A DNA stretch of 30,089 bases from a virus, in the IMG/VR virus record IMGVR_UViG_3300033141_000928, positions 1 through 30,089 of that record; one strand, 5' to 3'. The stretch's first letter is position 1; the number at the start of each line of letters is the position of its first letter. The notes beneath the pieces were generated by a model. It was not told the origin of the DNA and made no database searches. It was given only the letters and a program-made list of their open reading frames with translations. Positions 7,754 to 10,815 of the stretch are shown here, piece after piece. Made by a program: the position numbers and the translations under genes.

Positions 7754-7912
7754 ATGAAAATATATGAATTTATAGGCACAAGCCGAAGAGATGTAACCAT
7801 ACAGGCTAGAGAGAAAGGTTTATCTAACAAACCAATTTTGAAGTACACATATATTAACAATGTATCTCGATTAGTGGTTGATAGTTCAGCTAAAGATATA
7901 CCATGCCGATAG
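7754..7912 (+). CDS. Small hypothetical protein (52 aa)
   Basis: ATG 7754 with AGGTGA 5 bases upstream opens 52 residues (begins MKIYEFIGTSRRDVTIQA, ends KDIPCR). Beta-rich and basic; family not recognised. It overlaps the next ORF by 10 bases, consistent with a coupled operon. Confidence 0.6.
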   Translation: MKIYEFIGTSRRDVTIQAREKGLSNKPILKYTYINNVSRLVVDSSAKDIPCR

Positions 7913-8076
7913 TTAACTTTGATAGAAGCTTAATAGGCTGTAAAGACAAATGCACACCTAATGAAAAGGTTTGCTTGGGGTGCGGTAGGACGGTTACGCA
8001 GCGCCTAGAATGGCCTGAATATACCGATAACGAGAAGCGTAGGATTATCGAATTGATTAATAGGGGTGGAAAGTGA
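7903..8076 (+). CDS. DUF1289-like small Cys protein
   Basis: This encodes 57 residues with GCKDKCTP, then VCLGCGRT and a downstream EWPEYTDNEKRRIIELI helix. The four-cysteine pattern followed by GCGRT and a Trp matches DUF1289-type proteins, small putative iron-sulphur or zinc proteins of unknown role found in bacteria and phages. It overlaps the preceding and following genes; the methyltransferase start (GTG 8073) lies in its last codons. Confidence 0.65.
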   Translation: MPIVNFDRSLIGCKDKCTPNEKVCLGCGRTVTQRLEWPEYTDNEKRRIIELINRGGK

Positions 8077-8948
8077 AGGTATTGGATTTATTTAGCGGTA
8101 TTGGAGGCTTCAGCTTAGGGCTTGAACGCGCCGGGATGGAAACAATAGCCTTTTGCGAGATAGAAGATTACCCGCGTCAAGTTTTAAAGAAGCATTGGCC
8201 TGAAATACCGCTGGCTGGTGACGTAACTAAACTAACTTACAAAGATGGGGCGTTATACGATGACGGACAAGAAATCTACAGAGGACCAATTGACGCTATT
8301 TGCGGAGGGTTCCCCTGTCAAGATATCAGCCTCGCAGGAAAGCAGGAAGGTATCAAAGACGGCACAAGGTCGGGCCTCTGGTCAGAGTGCGCCCGTTTAC
8401 TTAGGGAAATTCGACCCGATTACGCAATCTTTGAAAACGTCACAGCGCTCCTTAGTGGACAGCAAGGGCGATGGTTTCAGCGAGTTTTGTTCGACATTTC
8501 CGAGGTCGGGTATGATGCGGAGTGGCACTGTATATCAGCTTCAGAACTTGGCGCACACCATCACAGAGATAGGGTCTGGATTATTGCCTACGCCGAGGTC
8601 ATGCAGCGCTATGGCGGGGAACTTGACCGAAAAAATGTCAAACCATCCTCACAACAATTTGGAGGTAGCTATAGCCAAAACTTTGTACCCAACACCCAGA
8701 GCGCGAGACTACAAAGGCGCGAGAAGTTTGGAATCTTTGGAGAAGGCAGGGAGGGATGGCACAAACTCATTGCCGGACTCGTTCGCGGTATCTGGGAAAA
8801 CAGCACAATTGAACCCACACTTTGTGGAAAATCTAATGGGGTTCCCAATAGGTCACACAGACTTAAAGGATTAGGAAACGCAGTAGTACCGCAAATACCA
8901 GAAATTTTAGGGAGGGTCATACTAAATGACACAAATAAACCACAATGA
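8073..8948 (+). CDS. DNA (cytosine-5) methyltransferase
   Basis: This encodes 291 residues, starting at GTG 8073 after AGGGGTGGA. All key C5 motifs are present: motif I DLFSGIGGFS (5-14) for AdoMet binding, motif IV GGFPCQDIS with catalytic Cys82, ENV (121-123), HRDRVWI (164-170) and GLGNAVVPQ (about 266-274). The spacing between motifs VIII and X is only about 100 residues, so the target-recognition region is small. It is likely active on phage DNA to block host restriction. A second open frame inside the gene (8260-8874) appears to be coding too. The recognition site cannot be read from sequence. Confidence 0.9.
   Translation: MKVLDLFSGIGGFSLGLERAGMETIAFCEIEDYPRQVLKKHWPEIPLAGDVTKLTYKDGALYDDGQEIYRGPIDAICGGFPCQDISLAGKQEGIKDGTRSGLWSECARLLREIRPDYAIFENVTALLSGQQGRWFQRVLFDISEVGYDAEWHCISASELGAHHHRDRVWIIAYAEVMQRYGGELDRKNVKPSSQQFGGSYSQNFVPNTQSARLQRREKFGIFGEGREGWHKLIAGLVRGIWENSTIEPTLCGKSNGVPNRSHRLKGLGNAVVPQIPEILGRVILNDTNKPQ
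8260..8874 (+). CDS. Second protein encoded in +1 frame inside the methyltransferase gene
   Basis: This is an open frame of 204 residues from ATG 8260 (another ATG at 8245); the Shine-Dalgarno is weak (GGGG, 9 bases). It opens TEDQLTLFAEGSPVKISAS, has PRSGMMRSGTVY, two GLLPTP/LYPTPRARD-type segments, and ends NPHFVENLMGFPIGHTDLKD. I recall phage proteins with this series (LFAEDSPVS, PRSGM, PTP..D, NP.WVEWLMGFP.GWTDL), usually found with methyltransferases. LFAEGSPV is the shifted reading of the CGGFPCQ motif, and LMGFPIGHTDL is the shifted reading of NGVPNRSHRLKG. Either the overlap is dual coding or the resemblance follows from DNA conservation. Function unknown. Confidence 0.55.
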   Translation: MTDKKSTEDQLTLFAEGSPVKISASQESRKVSKTAQGRASGQSAPVYLGKFDPITQSLKTSQRSLVDSKGDGFSEFCSTFPRSGMMRSGTVYQLQNLAHTITEIGSGLLPTPRSCSAMAGNLTEKMSNHPHNNLEVAIAKTLYPTPRARDYKGARSLESLEKAGRDGTNSLPDSFAVSGKTAQLNPHFVENLMGFPIGHTDLKD

Positions 8949-10328: not shown

Positions 10329-10423
10329 TAATATATGGACAAATAGTAGGGTGGTCGGATGATTTAGACCACTTAACAAAAGAGCAGTTTAAATTAGGCG
10401 GGACAATTAAAAGGTGGAATTAA
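10316..10423 (+). CDS. 35-residue hypothetical peptide
   Basis: ATG 10316 opens inside the end of the nuclease-like gene and ends in TAATG with the endolysin start. The peptide (MWYLVIYGQIVGWSDDLDHL, then a Lys/Gly tail) is beta-like and aromatic. The ribosome site is poor (GGGG two bases away). Stop-start coupling on its 3' side supports translation. Confidence 0.5.
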   Translation: MWYLVIYGQIVGWSDDLDHLTKEQFKLGGTIKRWN

Positions 10424-10815
10424 TGTATAAATTCGGAACTAAATCACAGCAAAAAATAGCTACTTGCCATCCTGATTTACAGGATATTTTAGATGAGGCA
10501 ATTAAGATAGTTGATTTTACAGTGCTTTGCGGTCATCGTGGCGAAGAAGAGCAAAACGAATACTTTCATTCTGGAAGATCCAAGGTTCAATACCCTAATT
10601 CAAAGCATAATCAAATGCCAAGCGTAGCGGTAGATATTGCACCCTATCCTATCGACTGGAATAATATAGAAAGATTCGCCCAACTAGGCGGTATTATTAA
10701 AGGAATAGCCCATACCAAAGGAGTTAAAATAAGGTGCGGGTTTGACTGGGATTGTGACGGAGATATAACAGATCATTCATTCATGGATTGGCCGCATATT
10801 GAGCTTGTACTATGA
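10423..10815 (+). CDS. Endolysin, M15-type peptidase
   Basis: This encodes 130 residues from ATG 10423 with AAGGTGG 7 bases upstream. SKHNQMPSVAVDI supplies His62 and Asp71, and DWPHIEL supplies His125, the zinc ligands of the M15 (VanY/L-alanyl-D-glutamate peptidase) family; CGHRGEEEQNEYF is also typical of phage M15 endolysins. It would cleave peptide stems of murein at lysis. There is no signal peptide, so release needs a holin. It is transcribed rightward, while the holin candidates and spanins are on the opposite strand. Confidence 0.85.
   Translation: MYKFGTKSQQKIATCHPDLQDILDEAIKIVDFTVLCGHRGEEEQNEYFHSGRSKVQYPNSKHNQMPSVAVDIAPYPIDWNNIERFAQLGGIIKGIAHTKGVKIRCGFDWDCDGDITDHSFMDWPHIELVL

Follow-up and report, generated by a model that had tools for sequence, protein, structure and literature searches.

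To our knowledge, few long same-strand overlaps in bacteria and phages come with strong evidence for both proteins. M.EcoHK31I (YGGCCR), a two-polypeptide C5 methyltransferase reportedly described by Lee, Kam and Shaw in 1995, is said to have a small subunit that is read from another frame inside the gene of the large one. In the multispecific methyltransferases of the SPR type, recognition units and catalytic motifs share one chain. According to the passages that treat M.EcoHK31I in a published account, motifs I-VIII and X are found on the larger polypeptide and motif IX on the smaller one, and the predicted recognition domain belongs to the larger subunit (PMC3404938); the enzyme is also treated in passages of another article (PMC3439449). 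M.AquI (CYCGRG) is named in the former passages as a C5 methyltransferase made of two polypeptides (PMC3404938), and Bacillus phages such as SPR are mentioned, in an excerpt of a further article, as having multispecific C5 methyltransferases (PMC8936443). Here, we report a locus within a virus record of 30,089 bases carrying head, tail, and internal virion genes, the whole of which we call the window. Sequence comparisons make it likely that a single DNA stretch specifies both subunits of a C5 cytosine methyltransferase here, with the specificity cassettes in the second, overprinted subunit.

The two chains, termed alpha and beta, and their features are listed in Table 1. The names of motif IV (GGFPCQ), the motif VIII region (HHHRDRVWIIAY), and motif X (LGNAVVPQ) follow what we take to be the C5 methyltransferase numbering from I to X. 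The start codon of alpha overlaps the TGA (8074-8076) of the preceding gene, making translational coupling possible. A short way downstream on the same strand lies an endolysin-like gene (10414-10815; phrog_465, E 2e-39).

Table 1. Features of the overlapping methyltransferase locus, in positions of the window.
Feature	Position	Strand	Remarks
DUF1289 gene, directly upstream of alpha	7903-8076	+	PF06945, E 1.7e-10 on 7906-8074
Alpha gene	8073-8948	+	Frame 0; C5 cytosine methyltransferase, 291 aa, GTG start
Beta gene	8260-8874	+	+1 frame; 204 aa from ATG 8260, stop 8872-8874
Alpha GGFPCQ (motif IV)	8304-8321	+	Overlaps beta LFAEGSPV (8296-8319)
Beta PRSGMM	8500-8517	+	
Alpha HHHRDRVWIIAY (motif VIII region)	8556-8591	+	End of the confident catalytic domain
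Beta cassette 1, type C14 (LPTPRSCSAM...)	8584-8685	+	
Alpha residues 178-268, low-confidence stretch, putative linker	8604-8876	+	pLDDT <50 throughout
Beta cassette 2, type C03 (YPTPRARDYKGAR...)	8686-8808	+	
Beta LNPHFVENLMGFPIGHTDL, motif IX-like end	8809-8865	+	Just before alpha LGNAVVPQ
Alpha LGNAVVPQ (motif X)	8871-8894	+	TTA Leu codon and next G form the beta TAG stop

Alpha possesses the catalytic domain of a C5 methyltransferase with motifs I-VIII. PF00145 matches its residues 1-176 (E 8e-46; profile positions 1-164 of 324) and ends at motif VIII, and phrog_363 matches residues 1-284 (E 1e-73). A match stopping at motif VIII is no rule for alpha, since the PF00145 match of an alpha-type gene elsewhere (L319) reaches position 323. 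The AlphaFold model of alpha, built with 31 relatives (mean pLDDT 67.1, pTM 0.65), has pLDDT values of about 70-97 over residues 1-177 except for residues 85-96, about 30 for residues 178-268, and about 84 for the end helix. Its best structural match is M.HhaI, with a Z-score of 21.6 and an rmsd of 2.6 over 193 aligned residues. A matrix of canonical motif IX found no site of note in alpha. In the model, alpha is without a confident recognition domain, and residues 178-268 would be a disordered linker at the position where an ordinary enzyme has this domain.

The first-pass annotation, made from the sequence alone, had described a second protein of 204 residues overprinted on the methyltransferase gene in the +1 frame. 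This open reading frame lies where it had been placed, and its LFAEGSPV over motif IV, its PRSGMM, and its LNPHFVENLMGFPIGHTDL before motif X were likewise recovered. Across the alpha gene, the +1 frame is open for 212 codons. We compared this length with 1000 shuffles in which the alpha codons were permuted among identical residues, preserving both the protein and the codon usage; the longest +1 stretch averaged 72 codons with a maximum of 180, and none of the shuffles reached the observed length. The +2 frame of the window is ordinary, with 45 codons observed versus a shuffle mean of 57. For a set of 79 genes (71 picked with alpha, the window, and seven found through beta), which was also used for the selection counts, 200 shuffles each never attained the observed +1 length in 67 genes, and in none did more than 5% of the shuffles do so. 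The alpha-picked relatives are the 71 distinct genes among the best 80 of at least 599 obtained by scanning viral contigs with the window alpha. The +1 frame is open in all 71, over 170-287 codons (median 224), versus 24-99 codons for the +2 frame. The end of beta is also fixed, its stop lying 2 nt before the GN of alpha motif X in 65 of the 70 genes in which this GN was found. The Leu codon that creates the stop is TTA or CTA at 68 of 71 sites, including the window, as opposed to 26% of 1435 other Leu codons.

Synonymous constraint in both frames, which the first-pass annotation had suggested measuring across homologues, points in the same direction. At the four-fold sites of alpha, 33 disjoint close pairs show a difference of 44.6% over the N-terminal part, which is single-coded, and of 51.5% over the tail, versus 25.3%, 7.6%, and 9.7% for three consecutive segments of the overlap at motifs IV-VIII. 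The low four-fold divergence over these motifs indicates that the +1 frame is constrained in this part. Of 560 changes scored across 30 disjoint pairs in the variable region, 72% leave beta unaltered (26% expected), and only 12% leave alpha unaltered (25% expected). For the motif IX-like end, 59% of 162 changes are silent in beta and 27% in alpha. Counts by codon position agree with the counts of silent changes; one codon-position count used all pairs, which are non-independent, and the other selection counts used disjoint pairs. The window's own variable region offers two comparable runs with 60 codons in all, which follow the same trend. Selection is thus inverted in the variable region, where beta is preserved over alpha. 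Frame openness, the fixed stop, four-fold constraint, and inverted selection together show computationally that the locus is dual-coding, as the first of two possibilities raised in the first-pass annotation had it.

The variable part of beta is composed of units of about 30-50 residues, each starting with a PTP-like motif. Clustering of these cassettes, with edges set by the PTP-like pattern and with L005, L006, and L093 omitted, resulted in 34 types across 76 loci, of which 43 have two cassettes, 19 one, 13 three, and one none. Cassettes are shuffled among loci, a given type being combined with various partners; C01 is seen in 10 arrangements and C08 in 8. The pair in the window, in the order given in Table 1, is common to L014. 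Alpha is longer where there are more cassettes, its mean length being 253 residues with one, 294 with two, and 330 with three.

The cassettes are followed by LNPxxVEWLMGFPxGHTDL, which sits immediately ahead of motif X, where motif IX would be expected. With the motif IX matrix, constructed from 18 canonical sequences and applied without the betas of L017, L005, and L006, in which the pattern had no match, the beta end ranked first in 56 of 76 betas and no lower than third in any of the 76. The matrix scores of this end are negative (mean -8 versus 40-62 for canonical sequences), and in single betas they do not go beyond shuffles, a mean share of 0.19 of which reached the score. When the beta profile was compared with the PDB, the same kind of segment in the DNA methyltransferase 4onj was retrieved at an E-value of 2.2, behind an unrelated PHD finger at 2.1. 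It is from its place that we infer a motif IX identity for the beta end.

In the two-subunit enzyme we favor, alpha would bind the cofactor and methylate the flipped cytosine, supplying motifs I-VIII and X. A ribosome starting inside the alpha gene, in the +1 frame and upstream of motif IV, would produce a beta of about 22 kDa, which would comprise, in this order, an N-terminal part from the DNA of motifs IV-VIII, two target-recognition cassettes, and the motif IX-like end. Alpha and beta would then assemble into one active enzyme, in which the cassettes choose the methylated sequences, presumably with one specificity per cassette, and methylation may shield the phage DNA from host restriction. 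Most probably, the second product serves this enzyme as its recognition subunit, a reading that goes beyond the first-pass annotation.

By motif layout and description, the locus is probably of the same kind as M.EcoHK31I, the closest precedent. The larger chain of the locus likewise has motifs I-VIII and X without motif IX, and its smaller chain appears to be encoded in another frame of the larger gene, as is reportedly the case for M.EcoHK31I. SPR-type enzymes resemble it as phage enzymes with tandem target-recognition units, which are putative here; in contrast to their layout, a second frame carries the units in this locus, and it is the +1 frame on which selection acts in the variable region. 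In contrast to M.EcoHK31I, for which the cited passages put recognition in the larger subunit (PMC3404938), selection here places recognition in the smaller chain, and the phage betas bear tandem shuffled cassettes. A blastn search with the window gene against E. coli genomes returned no match. The split of catalytic motifs and recognition part between two chains is shared with M.AquI, as portrayed in the passages on that enzyme. Unlike in M.AquI, motif X of the window remains on the catalytic chain, and the second frame reaches back across motifs IV-VIII. Relative to these partial accounts, the recognition units in beta, the tandem shuffled cassettes, and the wide spread in phages are new. 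Among the matches listed in openly licensed literature, as far as their excerpts go, there was no account of a nested arrangement in phages, which does not imply absence.

The ShiLan-type homing insertion likewise places a second protein out of frame in a phage DNA methylase gene. That insertion encodes an HNH endonuclease and is absent from some genes, whereas the +1 open reading frame reported here lies over catalytic motifs and is present in every one of the 71 alpha-picked genes. Neither Pfam nor PHROGs gave an HNH match in beta or the window. These two observations do not fit an out-of-frame homing insertion of this type.

Searching databases with the 204-residue product, as had been proposed, identified relatives, and no beta standing alone turned up among the loci read. 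Beta is matched by phrog_1008 (E 6.7e-28), and tblastn with the beta product retrieved 232 phage records at E <= 1e-3, 202 of which are Mycobacterium or Paenibacillus phages. The family phrog_1008, labelled DNA methyltransferase, appears to contain beta-type chains. Four scans gave 182 non-duplicate loci, of which 171 have a +1 frame that stays open beyond motif IV of an alpha frame, either for 120 codons or more or as far as a motif IX-like match, which 149 of the 171 reach. By scan, this was the case for 66 of 69 loci found with the beta profile in viral contigs (11 duplicates removed), 62 of 65 found there with a beta from a Leptospira plasmid (15 duplicates removed), 32 of 35 found there with a distant Bacteroides phage alpha (10 duplicates removed; the other three were unmatched by the pattern), and 11 of 13 found with the beta profile in genomes (0 duplicates). 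The viral scans with the two beta queries covered the best 80 of 451 and the best 80 of 596 relatives, and many contigs of one of them are those of the window-alpha scan.

The +1 frame is shorter in two of the 182 loci (L107 and L240), and nine had no match to the motif IV pattern. Five of these nine (L110, L114, L248, L261, and L106) were read by eye, leaving out L111, L310, L311, and L312, and all five have an alpha frame. The suggestion that the family also exists in stand-alone genes therefore found no support in the loci read. The first-pass annotation had named as adverse to its reading a lack of homologues outside overlapping frames combined with +1 stops in close methyltransferase relatives; the former is what the loci read display, and the latter is contradicted by the relatives picked with alpha. 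In L248 (2001-2728), the alpha frame runs after motif IV into the C-terminal reading of beta, as if one indel had joined the frames, apparently either a sequencing error or a real change. In L091 (600-1800), on a Bacteroides finegoldii plasmid, stops interrupt the alpha frame, and the beta frame still reads several PTP-like cassettes and the IX-like end; the annotation has two separate small genes.

We speculated whether a programmed +1 frameshift near motif VIII fuses the catalytic part of alpha to the beta cassettes and the motif IX-like end, in which case a separate beta would be neither made nor needed. A single +1 shift after motif VIII would join these parts, and no clear ribosome-binding site is present at either ATG of the window (8245 or 8260); the start codon of beta is uncertain, with ATG 8245, giving 209 aa, and TTG 8290 as alternatives. 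However, the four-fold constraint on alpha begins at motif IV, far upstream of the needed shift, which makes such a fusion less likely. Moreover, SD-like sites (at least 5 nt) precede a beta start at 32 of 79 loci versus 15 expected, a modest excess, and motif X would require a second shift back. We consequently regard a frameshift fusion as improbable.

Beta could also be a separately acting protein, such as a regulator, an anti-restriction protein, or another phage protein, that was overprinted by chance and stands outside the enzyme. Joining the chains in silico did not extend the PF00145 match (alpha 157.4, alpha-beta chimera 158.8, shuffled insert 160.9 bits), nor was there a gain with TIGR00675 (133.6 for the chimera versus 134.5 for the shuffled one). 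With an HMM of motifs IX-X, built from only five canonical sequences caught by pattern, the chimera scored above the shuffled one in 59 of 75 cases and above the +2 reading in 72, and above the alpha-only ends in just nine. Besides these negative chimera tests, the separate-protein reading is favored by the lack of a recognizable domain in beta: a Pfam scan of 44 betas produced no family above chance, and the AlphaFold model of beta has no confident fold (pLDDT 52.7, pTM 0.21). Nevertheless, the stretch in which alpha has no confident recognition domain is precisely the one that beta takes over, the cassettes and IX-like end of beta follow the order and occupy the position of the missing part, and beta never occurred without alpha in the loci read, so we deem a role outside the enzyme unlikely.

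For control, we used 30 PF00145 loci from 11 genomes chosen for carrying beta relatives, 22 of which were readable by pattern (some being the same gene twice) and eight not. The canonical enzymes among them (L313, L314, L324, and L332) are without an unusual +1 open reading frame, theirs spanning 40-70 codons and being reached by 142-200 of 200 shuffles. In nine alpha-type control loci, it spans 190-302 codons, reached by 0-4 of 200 shuffles. That of L318, L321, L328, and L333 is not beyond chance at 5%, and L323 has a short one of 74 codons, reached by 4 of 200 shuffles. Although at least one shuffle attained the observed length in 12 of the 79 genes, never exceeding 5%, and the high-GC loci L318, L328, and L333 are within chance, it is hardly conceivable that the openness is a mere by-product of alpha conservation and codon usage, a reading rejected by the excess openness over codon shuffles, the silent-in-beta changes, the constrained four-fold sites, and the fixed stop with its biased Leu codon.

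Returning to the two-subunit enzyme, we are inclined to generalize, with some reserve, that a common class of phage cytosine methyltransferases consists of nested heterodimers, with specificity residing in overprinted combinatorial cassettes, the annotated gene supplying just a passive linker there, and the N-terminal part of beta being a new domain born on motifs IV-VIII. The nested arrangement appears common in phages and mostly missed by annotation; annotators name both products methylase or list alpha only. Cultured phages with this layout include Paenibacillus phage Shelly and Synechococcus phage S-H1. If our reading is correct, databases may contain many annotated orphan phage methyltransferases without the recognition subunit that belongs to them, orphan alphas cloned alone may be inactive, and their specificity would need to be deduced from a frame that is not annotated. 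The shuffled cassettes could serve as a natural set for decoding recognition modules, and the recurrence of the overlap in many phage contigs opens its cost, benefit, and origin to study.

A different layout is found in the actinophages Wile, Samy, and Upyo, where frame 0 ends after motif VIII, and the +1 frame contains the cassettes, the IX-like end, and a GNGVV motif X. This layout is expected if the two frames share one enzyme, and with motif X on the second chain it resembles that of M.AquI, as far as the passages on the latter describe it. One possible evolutionary path would begin with a frame shift behind motif VIII, and a second shift would then have returned motif X to the first frame. 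In Streptomyces phage Samy (L369) and Gordonia phage Upyo (L371), the +1 open reading frames have 372 and 421 codons, respectively, with several PTP-like units. Samy gp50, a member of phrog_1008, has cassettes, the IX-like end, and motif X without catalytic motifs. In Mycobacterium phage Wile (L003, 2651-3394), gp74 is annotated from 2825, and the frame is open from 2651. The part before 2825 resembles beta, so that gp74 may begin earlier than annotated, with ATG 2741 and GTG 2663 among the candidate starts. In Paenibacillus phage Shelly (L370, 1150-1854), the depositors annotated a nested open reading frame, 'g55 internal gene', inside a DNA-cytosine methyltransferase.
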